Of a stretch of DNA of 64,000 nucleotides, positions 38,398 to 54,761 are shown in pieces. Source of the stretch: Lachnospiraceae bacterium (GTDB lineage: Bacteria > Bacillota > Clostridia > Lachnospirales > Lachnospiraceae); contig JAFXQX010000036.1 of assembly GCA_017526745.1 (NCBI GenBank), positions 1 to 64,000 on the forward strand, read 5' to 3'. The notes beneath the pieces are model-generated. The model was not told the DNA's origin. It worked only from the letters and a program-made list of their open reading frames with translations, and ran no database searches. A program made the position numbers and the translations under genes. Numbering within the stretch: the first letter of the stretch is position 1; every line of letters starts with the position of its first letter.

Positions 38398-39852
38398 ATG
38401 ATGTTCGACTCCATATCTTTTATCATATTGTTTCCTGCAGTTGTCATCATGTACCGTCTGATCCCGGAAAAGTTCAGGTACATATGGCTGCTCGTGGTAA
38501 GCTGCGCGTTCTATGCATCCGCACAGCCGCAATTTCTGATACTTCTTTTATTCGTGACACTTCTGATATATGCTTCGGGACTTCTTCTGTCCCTTGCAAA
38601 ACCTCAGCCGCTCAAAAGGATCATTATCGCATCTTCCGTTGTCATTCTTATCGGAATATTGTTTGTTTTCAAATATCTTAACTTTATGATAAGCCTTATG
38701 GGCAGTCCGGTCAGGTTTGATATCATCCTGCCCCTGGGCCTTTCCTTTTACACGTTTCAGGCGGTCTCTTATGTTGCGGACGTATACCGCGGCAGGATAA
38801 GTGCCGAGAAGAACATCCTAAAGCTCGCACTGTATCTTTCCTTCTTCCTTTCGATAGTATCGGGCCCGATAAACCGGGCGGAAGATATACTGCCTCAGCT
38901 TTCCGGAAGTCTACCCTCATACGATCAGACAAAAGAAGGGATGCAGAAGATGCTCTGGGGGTATTTCCTGAAGCTGGCCGTTGCGGGAAGGCTTAACATA
39001 ATCGTCGAGAACGTTTACGGGAACATAGAAGGTTTTTCGGGATTTTCACTGGCAGTGACCGCGCTTTTATACATATTCATGCTCTACTGTGATTTTGAGG
39101 GATATTCCCAGATCGCGACAGGCGGAGGATATATGCTCGGGATCAGGATGAATGAGAACTTCCGTCAGCCCTTTTTTGCCGAGAGCATTTCACAGATATG
39201 GAGAAGATGGCATATATCCCTGTCGACGTGGTTCCGTGATTACCTTTATATCCCGCTTGGCGGGAGCAGATGCGGGGTGGCAAGAAAATACCTTAACATC
39301 TTTACAGTCATGTTCGTAAGCGGGATATGGCACGGCGCAGACCTGTCGTTCTTTGTATGGGGAACGCTCTTTGGCATATTCATGATAGCGGGACAGATCA
39401 CACTTTCATACCGTGATGATGCGGCATCGCTTATAAAAGAAAAGCTGTTTTCTTCGTATGGCAGCAGGGGTATATTTGACAGGGCACATGTGGCCTTGCG
39501 AAGGATCGGGGTATACATTTCGTTCGCGTTCATATTTATCTTTTTTGCAAACGACAGCCTGTCGTCATCATTGCTTGTCGTCCGGTCGATATTTACGCGG
39601 TTCGATTGCGGCGGCGCACTTGCACAGCTGACCGGGCTGGGACTTGGCAGGTTTAACCTTCTGGTCGCATTTCTCATGATGGTATTCGTGCTCATTGCGG
39701 ATGCGGCCGCAAACAAAAGACAGATCCCGGTGCCGTTCCTTGCCGCACATATTCCGACTCCGGCAAGGTGGGCGCTGTACTGGATCCTTGTTTCGGCGAT
39801 ACTGTTTTCCGCAAACCTGTCGGGCAAGGAATTTATTTACAGTATGATGTGA
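38398..39852 (+). CDS. MBOAT-family O-acyltransferase (AlgI-like)
   Basis: This 484-residue polytopic protein is of the membrane-bound O-acyltransferase family, close in pattern to AlgI/DltB/PatA. Visible signatures are PLGLSFYTFQAVSYVADVYRG, SIVSGPINRAED, IWRRWHISLSTWFRDYLYIPLGG and the catalytic-histidine motif SGIWHGADLSFFVWG. It would move acyl (often acetyl) groups across the membrane to a surface polymer. The SGNH protein encoded one base downstream is the expected transferase partner. AAGGAG lies upstream of ATG 38398. Confidence 0.94.
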   Translation: MMFDSISFIILFPAVVIMYRLIPEKFRYIWLLVVSCAFYASAQPQFLILLLFVTLLIYASGLLLSLAKPQPLKRIIIASSVVILIGILFVFKYLNFMISLMGSPVRFDIILPLGLSFYTFQAVSYVADVYRGRISAEKNILKLALYLSFFLSIVSGPINRAEDILPQLSGSLPSYDQTKEGMQKMLWGYFLKLAVAGRLNIIVENVYGNIEGFSGFSLAVTALLYIFMLYCDFEGYSQIATGGGYMLGIRMNENFRQPFFAESISQIWRRWHISLSTWFRDYLYIPLGGSRCGVARKYLNIFTVMFVSGIWHGADLSFFVWGTLFGIFMIAGQITLSYRDDAASLIKEKLFSSYGSRGIFDRAHVALRRIGVYISFAFIFIFFANDSLSSSLLVVRSIFTRFDCGGALAQLTGLGLGRFNLLVAFLMMVFVLIADAAANKRQIPVPFLAAHIPTPARWALYWILVSAILFSANLSGKEFIYSMM

Positions 39853-39853
39853 T

Positions 39854-40858
39854 ATGAAGAGATTGACGATATTTGCAAAATGCATAGCTGCAGCGCTCCC
39901 GGCGATAGTCCTTTGCGCCTATACGCTACTGTGCCCTTTTGGCTATATGGACAGCGAGTACCCTGCATGGCGCCTTAAAAAGGAAGTGGCCGAAGGCAGA
40001 AAATATGCGGGAGAGCGTTTTGATACTGTTGTTCTCGGGGATTCGGTGGCCATGAGTTCCGTCATACCGGAAGTCCTCGGAGATTCCGTTGTAAGCCTGG
40101 CATGCGGCGGAGCAACATCGATAGAGATGTATTATTATCTTTCGGAGTATCTTAATAATCATGATGCACCGGATACGGTGATCATATTGTTTGCGCCGTT
40201 CCATTACTGGCATATTGACAATTACAAAACAAGGACCGTATATTTTAAGGCGATAGATCTGAAGGATCTTTCCGGATTGTATAAAAACGCATATGACTGC
40301 GGCGCCACATCCGTGATATACGACAATGTCGTAACGGACGAGATCTCATCAAGACTGGGACTTCCCAACCAATATCTTCCCGCGATATATGCGGCAAGAT
40401 TTACCGGAAGGTATGATGAGAACACCGCTTCATATGAAGATCTTATTAGTACGCACGGGTACGGCGGGTTCGGAAACCTTACGGAGTGTTACGACGAGTC
40501 ATACGAGACTTCATATGAGGACATGGTAATAGACGGCGATGCAAAGCTTCTGACCCTTTATATGCAGAAGATCCTGCGTCTTTGCAACGAAAATAAGATA
40601 GCGGTCAGACTCATACAGCCGGCGGTCAATAAAGCAACATTTGACAATCTCGGCAAACATTATTATGCTTCATATAGAAACTATATTAAACAGTTGTCGG
40701 GTATCTGTGACAACATTGATTATGAGACAGACCTTCGTGTGTATGACGGCAGATACTTTTCCGACGCATCGCATTTAAACAAAGAAGGCGCTCTTTGCTA
40801 TTCCGGAGAGATTTCGGAAATAGGCAATAATAAGGAGGAAGAAAATGCTGAACATTAG
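39854..40858 (+). CDS. Membrane-anchored SGNH protein, partner of the MBOAT
   Basis: This 334-residue protein has one N-terminal membrane helix (about 8-28) and an extracytoplasmic SGNH-type domain: Ser64 in LGDSVAMSS, APFHYWH in the middle, and Asp304/His307 in DASHLNKEGA. Gene pairing with an MBOAT and this topology match AlgX/AlgJ or DltD-type proteins that complete O-acetylation outside the cell. It starts one base after the MBOAT gene and its end overlaps the STAS gene by 14 bases. Confidence 0.85.
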   Translation: MKRLTIFAKCIAAALPAIVLCAYTLLCPFGYMDSEYPAWRLKKEVAEGRKYAGERFDTVVLGDSVAMSSVIPEVLGDSVVSLACGGATSIEMYYYLSEYLNNHDAPDTVIILFAPFHYWHIDNYKTRTVYFKAIDLKDLSGLYKNAYDCGATSVIYDNVVTDEISSRLGLPNQYLPAIYAARFTGRYDENTASYEDLISTHGYGGFGNLTECYDESYETSYEDMVIDGDAKLLTLYMQKILRLCNENKIAVRLIQPAVNKATFDNLGKHYYASYRNYIKQLSGICDNIDYETDLRVYDGRYFSDASHLNKEGALCYSGEISEIGNNKEEENAEH

Positions 40859-41147
40859 TAAGGAAGCAAATGAGGGTACGCTTAAGATCGGTCTTGAGGG
40901 AAGACTTGATACCGTTACCGCACCGCAACTCGAAGATGCACTCAAGGATTCCACGGATTCCGTAAAAGAGCTCGTGTTCGATCTCGAAAAGCTTGAGTAT
41001 ATCTCTTCGGCAGGCCTTCGTGTTCTTCTTTCCATGCAGAAGATCATGAACAAGCAGGGAAGCATGAAGATCCGCGGCGCCAACGAGAATATCATGGAGA
41101 TATTCGAAGTAACGGGATTTGTTGACATACTGACCATCGAGAAATAA
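40845..41147 (+). CDS. STAS-domain anti-anti-sigma factor
   Basis: This 100-residue single STAS domain is similar to SpoIIAA/RsbV. The likely regulatory phosphorylation site is Ser55 in LEYISSAGLRVLLS. The protein binds or releases its anti-sigma kinase depending on phosphorylation. AAGGAGG gives an excellent ribosome binding site within the end of the SGNH gene, which it overlaps. The kinase candidate follows 16 bases later. No sigma factor or PP2C phosphatase gene is in this cluster. Confidence 0.92.
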   Translation: MLNISKEANEGTLKIGLEGRLDTVTAPQLEDALKDSTDSVKELVFDLEKLEYISSAGLRVLLSMQKIMNKQGSMKIRGANENIMEIFEVTGFVDILTIEK

Positions 41148-41163
41148 TGTCGAGAGGATGCCG

Positions 41164-41592
41164 ATGAAGGAGATCACCGTAGCGGCAGATTGCGATAATC
41201 TTGACAAGGTAACGGCTATGCTCGAAGAATATCTTGATAATGCCGGAGCACCCGTGAGTGCGGCAATGAAGATATCCGTTGCGCTTGAAGAGATGTTCGT
41301 TAATGTTGCCCATTATGCATATACGGATACCGACGTTCCGGAAGAAGACAGGACCGTTACCGTACGTTTTGAAGATGTACAGGTAAACGGAAGTGCCGGA
41401 ATAAAGATCACCCTTTCGGACCACGGTAAGCCTTACGATCCTCTTGCCAAGGAAGATCCCGACACGACTCTTTCGGCAGACGTAAGACCTATTGGCGGCC
41501 TTGGTATCTTTATGGTCAAGAAGAGCATGGACAACGTCAGTTACGATAATATTGACGGATTCAACACCTTCTCCATGGAGAAGGCCTTCTGA
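41164..41592 (+). CDS. Anti-sigma-type serine kinase (RsbW/SpoIIAB-like HATPase)
   Basis: This 142-residue GHKL-type ATPase is like RsbW or SpoIIAB. The N-box-like segment is VALEEMFVNVAHYAY, with further motifs LSDHGKPYDP (G1-like) and GGLGIFMVKKSMDNV (G2-like). It probably phosphorylates the STAS protein encoded just upstream and may sequester a sigma factor or another client. The start is ATG 41164 because GAGAGG at 41152-41157 then has correct spacing; the ATG at 41158 would be too close. Confidence 0.88.
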   Translation: MKEITVAADCDNLDKVTAMLEEYLDNAGAPVSAAMKISVALEEMFVNVAHYAYTDTDVPEEDRTVTVRFEDVQVNGSAGIKITLSDHGKPYDPLAKEDPDTTLSADVRPIGGLGIFMVKKSMDNVSYDNIDGFNTFSMEKAF

Positions 41593-50930: not shown

Positions 50931-51269
50931 ATGGGAAGACCGGTAAAGATCCGCAAAAAGAAGAGCTTCATGTTCACCACGAGGCACTACTCATTCATGA
51001 GCATCATGGGGATAGTGCTTGGGGTATTCTGCCTCGGGGTCGTGATCACATCCGTCCTTCACAGTTATAACAATGCCGGATCTGTCGGAGTCGGTTTCGG
51101 CCTGATCGGCCTTATGTCCCTGATACTGAACATCATAGGCATCATTTGCGGCGTTTCAGGCCTTCACGAAAGAGACGTTTATATCACACCGGCTGTTGTC
51201 GCGATCGTGATCAATTCGATCGTGGTGCTCTGGTGGCTGATAATGATACTGATCTCGGCGATCGCCTGA
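50931..51269 (+). CDS. Small integral membrane protein of unknown function
   Basis: This 112-residue protein has a basic N-terminus (KIRKKK) and three hydrophobic segments (about 22-42, 54-75 and 86-110). The pattern recalls small DUF4190/DUF6142-type proteins, but I cannot assign it. It abuts pyrE with no gap and is followed 18 bases later by the peptidase-like gene, so it belongs to the same transcript. Confidence 0.75.
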   Translation: MGRPVKIRKKKSFMFTTRHYSFMSIMGIVLGVFCLGVVITSVLHSYNNAGSVGVGFGLIGLMSLILNIIGIICGVSGLHERDVYITPAVVAIVINSIVVLWWLIMILISAIA

Positions 51270-51287: not shown

Positions 51288-53387
51288 ATGACAGGAACTG
51301 ACCAGGAACTTCTTGACGAGAGATATTCTCTCGTTATGGACGGGATACGCAGGATAAAAGAGGAGTCTGCCTTCGGGGAGCCTCTTTTGTCGTATTTTAA
51401 TGTGTGCGCGGATATGCTTGATATGCTTTCCGCGATACTCGACCGAAGCCTTTGCGGCGGTATAAAGGATATGGATACAGCCGCTCTTGCGGCGGAAAAT
51501 CATGCCCTTTACGAAGACATCCTCGGAAGGGGCTATGACAAAAGCTTTACAAATCCCGACTATATAACTGCACTCTTTGAAAAAGAGAACATAGGTGACG
51601 CAAAACCGATGGCACAGTATCTGTCCTATCTTCTTGTTCAGATACGCGGCCTGATACCTTATGCATACGAAGGAAAGAAAGAGATATTCACGATACATGC
51701 GGAGCTTTTTGCCGAGATTTATTCGCTCTTTAGCTTTGCGGCGCTTGAAGGCAGGTATCCGGAAGTATCTGCCTTGCATGACGTTTTGTACTGGTTCATA
51801 AGAGATGACTGTGAGATCATCGTGCCGGACAATATCTCGCAGAAGATCGACCCTTCAAATGATTTTCTTACCAGGATCGTATGCGATGAGGATCTTGACG
51901 ATGAAAGGTATCTGTATCTTTCGGGCGAGTACGTTTCCGAAAACGAGAAGGAGATGGCCGCATTCATCTCAAAGCTTCCCGAAGATACGATCGACTTGAT
52001 CGCATCCACATTTACCGAAGGATACAGGATGGGTTTTGTGGCGGCAGATAAGCCGCTCGAAAAAAAGAACGGCGTGAACATCCGTTACAGCCTCGGCTTT
52101 GAGAGGATCATCAGAAAGGCCGTCGAAAATTTTGCGGCCATGGGTCTGGAGCCTGTTATATACAGGGCAGGTTCGTTATCGCTCACATCTTCCGGAACAT
52201 CAAAGGTCGGATTTTACGGTGCGGTACCCAACAGGCAGTATGACTACGATCATAAGGACGATCTGGCACTCTTTATCGATGCCGATCTTGTAACGAGAAG
52301 GATCGAGGTGCTGACAAAAGGATACGAGGCGGTAAAGGAGAAGGCGTATGGGCACGCGGGCCCCGCGGTGATGGAAGTGTTCGGGGAAGTTCCATTTACT
52401 CCCGCCGCCAAAGAGAGCGCGGTAACATTTACCGATAAGACGAGAAAGCTGTCGGTAGACTACAGTGCGAAGGCATCACTTGTAATAAACAGATACATAA
52501 TACCCGAAGAAAGAAGCTTTACGATCATAGCATTTCCTTCTCCCGAGATCGGAGATGATTTTGAAAAGATATTCTTCGAAACGGTTAAGCTGAACACCCT
52601 TCCCTACAAGAAATATGAGACAATACAGCAGAAGATCATAGATGCCCTCGATAAGGCCGGGTCTGTCAGGATAAAAGGCAAAGGGGACAACAGGACGGAT
52701 CTTACCGTAAACCTCATGCCGCTTTCCGACCCTGCAACGCAGTCGCATTTTGAAAACTGTGTTGCCGACGTCAACATTCCGGTGGGAGAGGTATTCACAT
52801 CACCGAAGCTTTCGGGAACGAACGGAGTGCTCAACGTTTCAAAGGTTTATCTTAACGGTATATTGTACAAGGATCTTTCGATAACATTTACCGACGGGAT
52901 GATAACGGATTATTCGTGCGCCAATTATGAGGATGCACAAAAGGGCAGGCAGTTCATAAAGGACAACATCCTTCACAAACACGACAGCCTTCCGATGGGA
53001 GAATTCGCGATCGGAACGAACACGACGGCGTACCGGATGGGAAGGGACTTCGATATCGAAGGACGGCTTCCGATACTCATCGCCGAAAAGACCGGTCCGC
53101 ATTTTGCGGTAGGCGATACCTGCTACTCGCACGAAGAGGATGTCAGGGTATACAATCCAGACAAAAAAGAGATCATATCGCGGGAAAATGAAGTATCCGC
53201 AAAGCGTCATACAAATGAGAAGGAAGCTTATTTCCAGTGCCACACGGATATCACGATAGCGTTTGACGAACTGCTGTATATCCGGGCCGTAACCGGTGAC
53301 GGTGATATCCCCATAATCGAGAACGGCCGTTTCGTACTTCCCGGGACCGCAGAACTTAACGAACCTCTCGACAGGGACCAGATATGA
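51288..53387 (+). CDS. M29-like aminopeptidase with large N-terminal extension
   Basis: The C-terminal half of this 699-residue protein resembles M29 metallo-aminopeptidases (AmpS/PepS/AmpT). It contains VNIPVGEVFTSPKLSGTNG, MGEFAIGTNTTAYRMG, LIAEKTGPHFAVGDTCYSH and HTDITIAFDE, which hold the expected Glu, His, Tyr and Asp metal or catalytic residues. M29 enzymes usually have about 410 residues, so roughly 290 extra residues form an N-terminal helical domain of unknown role. It is probably cytoplasmic. Its last four bases overlap the ParB-like/HAD gene, linking it to that cassette. Confidence 0.82.
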   Translation: MTGTDQELLDERYSLVMDGIRRIKEESAFGEPLLSYFNVCADMLDMLSAILDRSLCGGIKDMDTAALAAENHALYEDILGRGYDKSFTNPDYITALFEKENIGDAKPMAQYLSYLLVQIRGLIPYAYEGKKEIFTIHAELFAEIYSLFSFAALEGRYPEVSALHDVLYWFIRDDCEIIVPDNISQKIDPSNDFLTRIVCDEDLDDERYLYLSGEYVSENEKEMAAFISKLPEDTIDLIASTFTEGYRMGFVAADKPLEKKNGVNIRYSLGFERIIRKAVENFAAMGLEPVIYRAGSLSLTSSGTSKVGFYGAVPNRQYDYDHKDDLALFIDADLVTRRIEVLTKGYEAVKEKAYGHAGPAVMEVFGEVPFTPAAKESAVTFTDKTRKLSVDYSAKASLVINRYIIPEERSFTIIAFPSPEIGDDFEKIFFETVKLNTLPYKKYETIQQKIIDALDKAGSVRIKGKGDNRTDLTVNLMPLSDPATQSHFENCVADVNIPVGEVFTSPKLSGTNGVLNVSKVYLNGILYKDLSITFTDGMITDYSCANYEDAQKGRQFIKDNILHKHDSLPMGEFAIGTNTTAYRMGRDFDIEGRLPILIAEKTGPHFAVGDTCYSHEEDVRVYNPDKKEIISRENEVSAKRHTNEKEAYFQCHTDITIAFDELLYIRAVTGDGDIPIIENGRFVLPGTAELNEPLDRDQI

Positions 53388-54274
53388 AGACTGATCTTGA
53401 ACAGTTCATAGCCGACGAGGTACAGATACAGAGGAGCACGGCCGTACCGGTAAAGGCATCCCTTATCGAACGGCTGATCGTAAGAAAATGCCGTGTTGAT
53501 AACCTCCTGCCGAATCCGGAGGATGAATTCTGTTTTCCCGATATCGGACCGAACATGGACATAATATCCCGATATGTTTCGCAGTTTATCGAGAACATGG
53601 ATAAAAATCTTCCGATCATGGATGAGCCGCTCTACGTTCAGAAGATACGTCCTTCCGGATATATGATATTGAACGGGCATCACAGATGGGCGGCGGCAAC
53701 GCGCCTGTCGATAAAGACTGTTCCGGTACAGATCGTAAACGGGATATATGAAGGTGATATCAGAAGGATACTTGAGGCATCAACGCATGAAAAGCGTGCG
53801 ACGATCGATCTTGATGAGGTCGTGTTTGCAACGCATCCCGACGATATCGCCGAAAGAAGAAGAGGCATCCCTTTGCTTTGCCCGTTTAATAAAAGGATAC
53901 GCCTTGGTATACCCGCCCTGTTTGCAAATCTCAAGCTTAAGGGTTATGACATATGGGTGTACTCTTCGAGTTTTTACAGTGTCGATGATATCGCAAAACT
54001 GTTCGCACGTTATGCGGTAGCCGTTGACGGCATCATCACCGGATTAAAGCCTAAAAGCGGCAAGCCGTCAAAGCAGGGGAAAAAGATGGATGAGCTCATC
54101 GGGAATAAATACCGGATGACTCTTCACATAGACAGGGATCTTCTGGTCAAAACATACGGCCGGTCGGGTGATTTTCGCGAAGCTTCGGTAGAGTCGTCCC
54201 CCGGGCTATGGTCAGCGGCAGTGATTGATGCACTTGCGGGTATCGAAAAAGATGAAAGAAGCCAATCCACATGA
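53384..54274 (+). CDS. ParB/Srx-like domain fused to a HAD-like domain
   Basis: This 296-residue two-domain protein is not known to me as a described architecture. Residues 1-130 look like a ParB/sulfiredoxin-type fold with the signature NGHHRWAAA at about 97-105. Residues 138-280 form a HAD-like domain starting TIDLDEVVF (Asp142, Asp144), then WVYSSSF (motif II) and HIDRD near the end. The HAD part is clearly paralogous to the next gene. ParB-like folds can bind or hydrolyse nucleotides; the HAD part suggests phosphate chemistry. It overlaps the peptidase gene upstream (4 bases) and the HAD gene downstream (23 bases). Confidence 0.75.
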   Translation: MKTDLEQFIADEVQIQRSTAVPVKASLIERLIVRKCRVDNLLPNPEDEFCFPDIGPNMDIISRYVSQFIENMDKNLPIMDEPLYVQKIRPSGYMILNGHHRWAAATRLSIKTVPVQIVNGIYEGDIRRILEASTHEKRATIDLDEVVFATHPDDIAERRRGIPLLCPFNKRIRLGIPALFANLKLKGYDIWVYSSSFYSVDDIAKLFARYAVAVDGIITGLKPKSGKPSKQGKKMDELIGNKYRMTLHIDRDLLVKTYGRSGDFREASVESSPGLWSAAVIDALAGIEKDERSQST

Positions 54275-54761
54275 AAAGATGCGGGTGTCGTTCGATCTTG
54301 ATGAAGTATTGTTCGTATCCCCCGCAACTCATAAGACCGAACCGCCTCTTCCCTTTATCCTGAACAGGATATACAAAGAGCGGCTCAGGCTCGGGACCGT
54401 TGAGCTTATCAATACATTGCAGAAGATGGGATATGAGGTGTGGGTATACACGTCGTCGTTTAGAAGCCAGCGGTATATAAAGCATCTGTTCGCACTCTAC
54501 GGGGTGAAGTTTGACGGGATCATAAATGCGCAGAGGCATCTGTCCGAGGTGCAAAGAGACAGAAAGCAGATACTTCCGCAGAAGGTTCCGAGCATGTACA
54601 GGATATCACTCCATGTCGACGACGAGACGGTCATATGCTCGCTCGGCAGGCAGTATGGATTTGAAGCTTACCAGCTTGATGCGCAGGATGACGACTGGAA
54701 GGAAAAGGTCATAGAACGCGCCGAGCAGATAAAACGCCGGACGATATCCGCCGGCAGTTAA
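54252..54761 (+). CDS. Stand-alone HAD-like protein, paralogue of the preceding domain
   Basis: This 169-residue protein carries SFDLDEVLF (Asp15, Asp17), RLGTVELINTLQKMGYEVWVYTSSF and a late HVDDE. This is the same order and spacing as the C-terminal domain of the preceding gene, including LFA.YGVKFDGII. It is probably a small HAD phosphatase or phosphotransferase. The start at ATG 54252 has only a weak ribosome binding site and lies inside the preceding gene, so translation is likely coupled. purE follows after 35 bases. Confidence 0.75.
   Translation: MKEANPHEKMRVSFDLDEVLFVSPATHKTEPPLPFILNRIYKERLRLGTVELINTLQKMGYEVWVYTSSFRSQRYIKHLFALYGVKFDGIINAQRHLSEVQRDRKQILPQKVPSMYRISLHVDDETVICSLGRQYGFEAYQLDAQDDDWKEKVIERAEQIKRRTISAGS

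Follow-up and report, generated by a model that had tools for sequence, protein, structure and literature searches.

Two overlapping genes in the genome of a Lachnospiraceae bacterium (assembly GCA_017526745.1, contig JAFXQX010000036.1) form a two-gene unit with a clear partner relation, placed behind an unrelated peptidase gene. They lie in the 64,000-nucleotide stretch analysed here (positions 1 to 64,000 of the forward strand of the contig, hereafter the window) and encode P0002, a fusion of a ParB/Srx domain with a HAD domain, and P0003, a standalone HAD protein. The unit is undescribed within the literature that we searched, and a link to phosphate-switch signalling is plausible. A sequence-only reading of the same DNA had joined the two genes to the upstream peptidase gene, P0001, in a single three-gene cassette, for which it considered either nucleotide or nucleopeptide processing or a phosphate-based protein modification to be conceivable. 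The main features are the following:

51288..53387, plus strand: P0001, M29-like metallopeptidase with a long N-terminal extension, 699 amino acids
53384..54274, plus strand: P0002, fusion of a ParB/Srx (SerK-like) domain and a HAD domain with a probably diverged catalytic site, 296 amino acids
53384..53758, plus strand: ParB/Srx domain of P0002, residues 1-125, with NPxDEF...IGP...NGHHRW
53789..54271, plus strand: HAD domain of P0002, about residues 136-296, paralogous to P0003
54252..54761, plus strand: P0003, standalone small HAD phosphatase as judged by its motifs, partner of P0002, 169 amino acids from its ATG

All three open reading frames (ORFs) are intact, and they overlap as the sequence-only reading had described, by 4 bases between P0001 and P0002 (53384-53387) and by 23 bases between P0002 and P0003 (54252-54274). 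The three families were found across many genomes, which excludes chance ORFs and confirms that the genes are real.

The partner relation between P0002 and P0003 is carried by their distribution. A scan of contigs with P0002 returned 20 loci, and in 18 of them a HAD gene directly follows the fusion; at L058 the HAD frame beside the fusion is shortened to 74 amino acids, and L061 has no adjoining HAD gene, although the isolate it derives from also yielded L060, where the pair is present. Among 392 genomes of the order, the two-domain fusion is present in 17, all of which also possess the standalone HAD gene (Fisher P 7e-28, relatedness uncorrected). Sixteen of these fusions are open, and that of G490 is interrupted by a stop, leaving an ORF of 200 amino acids. 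The standalone HAD gene itself occurs in 19 of the order genomes, including G120, where it is accompanied by a ParB-only gene, and G175, where it is found alone; G363 has a 122-amino-acid ParB ORF and no HAD match. Fusion and HAD gene are unlinked in five of the 17 genomes (G492 and G374; G355, G231 and G493), lying on different contigs except in G374, where about 63 kilobases (kb) separate them, and by sequence distance these five cases represent two lineages. The co-occurrence thus persists where the genes are unlinked and reflects more than a shared position, on the evidence of few independent cases.

Outside this set, the HAD gene was found in three of the 398 genomes of a phylum sample, one of which (G840) is outside the order. 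In a family sample, 8 of 150 genomes gave a P0002 match, with fusion and HAD side by side in three of them (the window's own genome, G041 and G023); the other matches involve one domain only, or separate ParB and HAD genes as in G120, and G089 and G092 are matched through the HAD part alone, without a two-domain fusion. The evolutionary distances of fusion and HAD correlate with r 0.56 over 37 genomes and 0.61 over the 19 that also have the M29-like gene, where the correlation is 0.49 between fusion and M29-like gene and 0.38 between HAD and M29-like gene. The correlation between fusion and HAD is barely above those with the M29-like gene, so coevolution adds little to the case for the pair. 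Mean divergence over the 37 genomes amounts to 36% of positions for the HAD protein and 54% for the fusion. In PHROGs, P0002 matched mainly ParB-like families, and P0003 matched polynucleotide kinase (E-value 1e-7) and a family of phosphoheptose isomerases. Two combinations were run against mobile elements, and neither P0003 in phage records nor P0002 in plasmid records gave a match; PADLOC gave none for P0001, P0002 or P0003. A phage or plasmid origin and a role in anti-phage defence were set aside on these results.

P0001 is an ordinary family-wide gene of the pyrFE-purEM block, separate from the P0002-P0003 pair. As noted from the letters alone, it is an enlarged M29-like peptidase: the Pfam model Peptidase_M29 (PF02073) covers residues 441-615 with 60.5 bits (cut-off 27), and its 699 residues exceed the usual M29 size by about 290, with 30 homologues spanning 678-705 amino acids. 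In this P0001 differs from the M29 aminopeptidases AmpS, PepS and AmpT, which are about 410 amino acids long (solved chains of 413 and 418). It resembles them in the catalytic residue set EEHYHD, whose composition and spacing were taken from PMC7023490 and which corresponds in P0001 to E501, E572, H605, Y613, H652 and D654, invariant across 31 sequences. E501 aligns directly with the glutamate of NIPTEEVF in the solved AmpS structure, and the other five residues were assigned by Pfam match, motif and spacing. Judged by these residues, P0001 appears to be catalytically active as an M29 peptidase.

The gene was matched in 133 of the 150 family genomes, the window's own included; 129 matches are strong, and four are weak (G050, G125, G126 and G130, best E-values 9e-8 to 7e-14). 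The window apart, we inspected the 29 highest-ranking loci (L003-L031), a choice by rank that is no random sample. In 21 of them purE is matched 38-351 bases after the M29-like gene, in two purM follows but purE is unmatched, and in six the available flank shows neither; pyrE is visible in 18, and no P0002 or P0003 match occurs in any of the 29. The window itself has pyrF, pyrE and a DUF6142-type gene upstream of P0001, and purE, purM, purN and purD downstream of P0003, in line with the earlier placement between pyrFE and purEMND; these names, and those of the block running from a pfkB-like gene to purE, were assigned by eye from the sequence. Two of these neighbours are given here as context:

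50931..51269, plus strand: small DUF6142-type membrane protein (Pfam PF19639, 31.9 bits, cut-off 27), between pyrE and P0001
54797..55303, plus strand: purE, named by eye, the usual direct downstream neighbour of the M29-like gene

In 12 of 29 family loci a weak relative of the DUF6142-type gene (21-34% identity) precedes the M29-like gene, and G468 has a clear relative with 64% identity.

The idea of a single cassette for nucleotide or nucleopeptide processing has in its favour the overlapping frames and the position between pyr and pur genes, as seen in the window and in L044. Examination of the 41 genomes holding the pair or one of its members did not bear it out. With a threshold E-value of 1e-20, P0001 is present in 21 of these genomes and absent from 20, and it adjoins the pair in only two, the window's own and G514 (L044). 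Among the other 19 that hold P0001, purE comes directly after it in 16, and in the available flank of G120, G177 and G529 both purE and the pair are missing; in G303 a distance of 26 kb on the same contig separates the pair from P0001. Moreover, G468, which belongs to the same genus, preserves the identical gene order from the pfkB-like gene (window 36845) through purE, with the M29-like gene about 100 bases before purE and without P0002 and P0003. A partial exception that leans toward the nucleotide or nucleopeptide idea is G493, where the standalone HAD gene and P0001 share a strand and are separated by 3.5 kb that include pyrE. At that locus (L152 4178-10202) the standalone HAD gene, a gene with a MutS_V domain and the M29-like gene are found within 6 kb on one strand, the fusion being on another contig. 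The peptidase gene therefore occurs independently of the pair, the circumstance that the sequence-only reading had itself named as refuting its cassette, and together with the arrangement in G468 this led us to reject the three-gene cassette, which is almost certainly wrong. A role in nucleotide metabolism was likewise dropped: it had been drawn from position alone, and it is weakened because the pair is missing at that position in G468.

The description of P0002 as a ParB/Srx-HAD fusion with P0003 as HAD paralogue was upheld through profile comparison. Matches of the single proteins to Pfam are below the cut-offs (P0002 scores 14.3 bits with HAD Hydrolase, cut-off 26.4, and 20 bits with ParB_N, cut-off 26.3; P0003 by itself gives only sub-threshold HAD matches). 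The profile of the P0003 family aligns with the HAD domain of the fusion over 158 columns with a probability of 100%, which identifies P0003 as a paralogue of that domain. HAD enzymes are characterized by motifs I to IV, namely DxD, T/S, K and DD. The standalone protein carries all of them, with D15, D17, T67, K111, D123 and D124 found in 39 of 39 sequences. The HAD domain of the fusion keeps the two aspartates of motif I in 37 and 38 of 39; a lysine in the column of K111 (motif III) is present in one sequence, and an aspartate in the column of D124 (second aspartate of motif IV) in four. In the unlinked lineage L144/L145 the nucleophile of the fusion is itself replaced by Asn. These counts are based on 39 fusions and 39 standalone HAD proteins, near-identical pairs kept, and leave out three sequences below the score limits, namely the ParB-only ORFs L148 and L149 and the shortened HAD of L058. 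From these residues, P0003 is probably an active HAD enzyme and the HAD domain of the fusion has probably diverged to a non-catalytic state.

As to the N-terminal part of P0002, its best NCBIfam match is SerK, with 28.4 bits, far below the cut-off of 380, and SerK is the sole model matched by all 23 members of the P0002 family. Among solved structures, its profile is closest to 1vk1, an entry that names no function, and to SerK chains, followed by SbnI and ParB. A confident AlphaFold2 model of P0002 reached a predicted local distance difference test score (pLDDT) of 87 and a predicted template modelling score (pTM) of 0.80. For P0002, TIGR00180 (ParB partition protein) scores 18.3 bits against a cut-off of 58.45, and the ParA-binding motif [LFI]G[KR]G[LFI] is absent. 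The sequence NGHHRW is present in 39 of 39 fusions. Its GHHR corresponds to GxxR (Box II), given as a nucleotide-pocket motif of the ParB/Srx superfamily in PMC12704722, and nucleotide binding by P0002 is predicted on this ground. ParB-like domains have been reviewed (PMC5512222).

SerK, an ADP-dependent free serine kinase of ParB/Srx fold (PMC5120207), is thus the nearest ParB-fold family by sequence, and GHHRW is common to both. P0002 differs from it in having Asn instead of Asp before GHHR and in its additional HAD domain. A further difference concerns Glu30 of SerK, which we take to be catalytic and whose numbering, as read from the alignments, differs between 5x0e and 5x0j. In the sequence alignment this residue is matched with Met58 of P0002, and 27 of the 39 fusions have Tyr there, with a single acidic residue (Asp, L062). 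A serine kinase identity of the P0002 domain is therefore doubtful. The same position is Glu in the Rhs-type tails of G009 and G131 and Asp in the ParB-only protein of G120. G009 (L036, L189) encodes an Rhs-repeat protein, with an open frame of 4476 amino acids, whose C-terminus is a ParB domain of the P0002 clade; G131 (L037, L190) encodes a similar protein with a ParB C-terminus of the same clade. In L189, small ORFs downstream of the Rhs-repeat protein resemble immunity genes by eye.

Evidence on function comes from the neighbourhood of the pair, which is linked to STAS, RsbW and SpoIIE genes above background, although not universally. We scanned 47 loci, unlinked HAD loci included, with profiles for STAS, RsbW-like ATPase, SpoIIE/RsbU, a MatE-ATPase protein and a recurrent protein of 177-415 amino acids, here called comp3. 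In 11 of 41 genomes a pair member has a STAS gene no more than 5 kb away (L045, L049, L052, L053, L056, L062, L146, L148, L153, L154 and L157), against 0.5 expected from 111 STAS matches in 118 megabases of the same genomes (genome sizes rounded). L148 counts as a ParB remnant, and for L153 and L154 distances were measured from the unlinked HAD gene. Grouped by eye, the 11 cases correspond to about seven lineages, and the Poisson P for seven is about 1e-6. Further STAS genes are beyond the limit, at 6.8 kb in L152 and at 12.2 kb in the window. The gene orders vary: MatE-ATPase, pair, comp3, STAS and SpoIIE in L052; HAD, fusion, RsbW and STAS in L157; and in L141 the pair followed by SpoIIE directly after HAD. 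In L148 (9795-10988), the 122-amino-acid ParB ORF ends soon after NGHHRW and directly precedes an RsbW-STAS fusion protein of 250 amino acids. L048, L057 and L135 have a gene of the MatE-ATPase type as immediate neighbour of the pair, and L156 has one at a distance of 2.9 kb; in L060 the fusion is preceded by comp3.

A Pfam tally of the genes up to two positions from the pair agrees with this picture. HATPase_c_2 is the most frequent family (7 of 124 proteins), MatE the second (6), and STAS accounts for 3. None of the three is in the control list of 25 families, which reaches single-member families, so that each is present in at most 1 of the 120 control proteins, all located six to eight genes away and all used. 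Other neighbour families, such as PEP-utilisers and ABC proteins, occur in 2-3 of the 124 proteins with no apparent pattern. The tally covers 34 of the 47 loci, leaving aside L049, L053, L055-L057, L061 and L063 of the high-GC (guanine-cytosine) group, the near-duplicates L137, L142, L144, L150 and L153, and the window. Of 131 selected neighbours 124 were tallied, those dropped being the M29-like gene and partial purM of L044, the comp3 calls of L052 and L062, and one gene of L062 and two of L151 that resemble retained genes of L060 and L136, respectively.

Two further components of these neighbourhoods were observed. MATE transporters with a C-terminal HATPase_c_2 domain are located near the pair in L049 (345-2096), L135 (10845-12614) and L156 (13694-15445), the ATPase part of the MatE-ATPase proteins being confirmed by Pfam in L049 only; we know of no description of such a transporter-signalling fusion. 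The comp3 protein mostly adjoins STAS and is sometimes apparently duplicated (for example L146 11714-12961, L060 5545-6078 and L152 17310-18518); the three members examined with Pfam (L060, L049 and L146) gave no match.

The window has its own STAS and RsbW-like genes, about 12 kb upstream of the pair:

40845..41147, plus strand: STAS anti-sigma-factor antagonist (Pfam STAS, ISSAG motif), candidate functional partner
41158..41592, plus strand: RsbW-like ATPase (HATPase_c_2, Pfam PF13581, 75 bits), candidate functional partner

By analogy, the ISSAG motif is presumably the phosphoserine site, and by its family the ATPase is a candidate serine kinase. G514, which has the pair, carries STAS and RsbW-like genes at the corresponding position, flanked by SGNH-type and DUF3048-type genes; its pair is on a different contig, so that the distance is not visible. 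In G468 (L186), which lacks the pair, both are missing from that place with the flanking genes in order; other STAS and RsbW-like genes are found on another of its contigs. This co-variation, limited to three genomes, agrees with the neighbourhood signal. In the window, the stretch 38398-41592 comprises MBOAT- and SGNH-type genes, identified by eye, followed by the STAS and RsbW-like genes.

We tentatively favour, with somewhat less than even confidence, the explanation that P0002 and P0003 are a nucleotide-responsive phosphatase pair adjusting the serine phosphorylation of a partner-switching protein. From the computed pairing, active-site state and neighbourhood we infer that the diverged HAD domain of P0002 could bind the active P0003 and hold it in a complex, that the ParB/Srx domain could bind a nucleotide and so render P0003 responsive to it, and that the target might be a serine-phosphorylated partner-switching protein, either the STAS antagonist or another substrate of RsbW. 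The reversing enzymes known from partner switching are PP2C/PPM phosphatases. A wider claim, that a ParB/Srx nucleotide sensor and a degenerate HAD domain control an active HAD enzyme reversing partner-switching serine phosphorylation, and thereby constitute a new signalling module, is one that we regard as rather unlikely. The pair resembles partner switching of the RsbU/RsbV/RsbW type in that STAS, RsbW-type ATPase and SpoIIE genes recur beside it, and these neighbourhoods are compatible with the phosphate-based protein modification suggested by the sequence-only reading.

Several observations weigh against the nucleotide-responsive pair. The better matches of P0003 are phosphatase domains of polynucleotide kinases and not protein phosphatases, and Lys/Arg is common in the fusion at positions 223 (34 of 39) and 242 (32 of 39), so that a displaced motif III lysine is possible. 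In 30 of the 41 genomes no STAS gene was found within 5 kb, some of these loci ending at contig ends, and the STAS gene of the window is itself 12.2 kb away. G332 and G409 hold the pair without any match to SpoIIE or to the STAS (A3) profile, several of the counted loci are close relatives, and SpoIIE phosphatases are present in 40 of the 42 genomes searched, so an additional STAS phosphatase is not needed to make up for a missing one.

The main rival, which we consider unlikely, is a pair derived from a toxin, in which the ParB/Srx domain would act like Tox-ParB, as a phosphotransferase or nucleotidase, with an effect that the HAD protein would reverse or restrain. Such an origin would explain why none of the 392 genomes has a two-domain fusion without HAD, the HAD-less G363 having the 122-amino-acid ParB remnant only. 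The asymmetry in the other direction also fits, with HAD but no two-domain fusion in G120 and G175, and also in G089 and G092. The ParB clade with NPxDEF...IGP...NGHHRW forms the C-terminus of the Rhs-repeat protein of G009 and of the similar protein of G131, as in Tox-ParB of polymorphic (Rhs) toxins, and ParB-fold toxins are discussed as possible metal-dependent phosphotransferases in PMC3482391. However, in place of Rhs repeats the pair has a HAD domain in the fusion and a HAD protein as partner; HAD diverges less than the fusion, unlike a fast-changing antitoxin, the pair is repeatedly placed beside signalling genes, and the searches with PADLOC, in phage records (P0003) and in plasmid records (P0002) were empty. 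Moreover, the Glu30 position is Glu within Rhs-type tails and mostly Tyr in the fusions, and the activities may differ.

The weak similarity of P0003 to polynucleotide kinases would fit instead the processing of nucleic-acid ends, with HAD as a PNKP-like 3'-phosphatase and the ParB/Srx domain supplying nucleotide or nucleic-acid binding. Besides the PHROG match, this draws on Pfam HAD_PNKP, which is matched by 3 of 24 members and gives P0003 18.5 bits, below the cut-off of 27.6; a NIF phosphatase model is matched by 2 of the 24. P0003, at 169 amino acids, is a small HAD protein that differs from phosphatases of the PNKP kind in the absence of a kinase domain and in having its HAD paralogue fused to a ParB domain, and among the best 25 families of the neighbour tally no kinase, ligase or nuclease is prominent, the signal being one of signalling. 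We consider this distinctly unlikely. Still more improbable is a couple acting on free serine and phosphoserine, in which the ParB/Srx domain would phosphorylate serine as SerK does and HAD would dephosphorylate it. The NCBIfam and PDB matches to SerK speak for it, together with a weak similarity between HAD and a phosphoserine phosphohydrolase-like protein (E-value 0.048), while the score far below the SerK cut-off, the residues at the Glu30 position and the lack of a recurring serine or cysteine gene family in the neighbour tally argue against it.

The analysis removes a misleading three-gene cassette and its supposed nucleotide role, and replaces them with a concrete ParB-fold case in which a HAD fusion is kept with a separate HAD enzyme and the neighbourhood points to phosphate-switch signalling. 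According to PMC12704722, ParB-fold domains bind several nucleotides and are fused to many other domains, with most of the functions unknown; the main text of that survey has one occurrence of 'HAD' and none of 'phosphatase'. Within the titles and abstract openings searched, we found neither a ParB-HAD protein or pair nor a HAD phosphatase as a component of partner switching. Many of the genomes holding the pair come, by their record titles, from rumen and gut samples.

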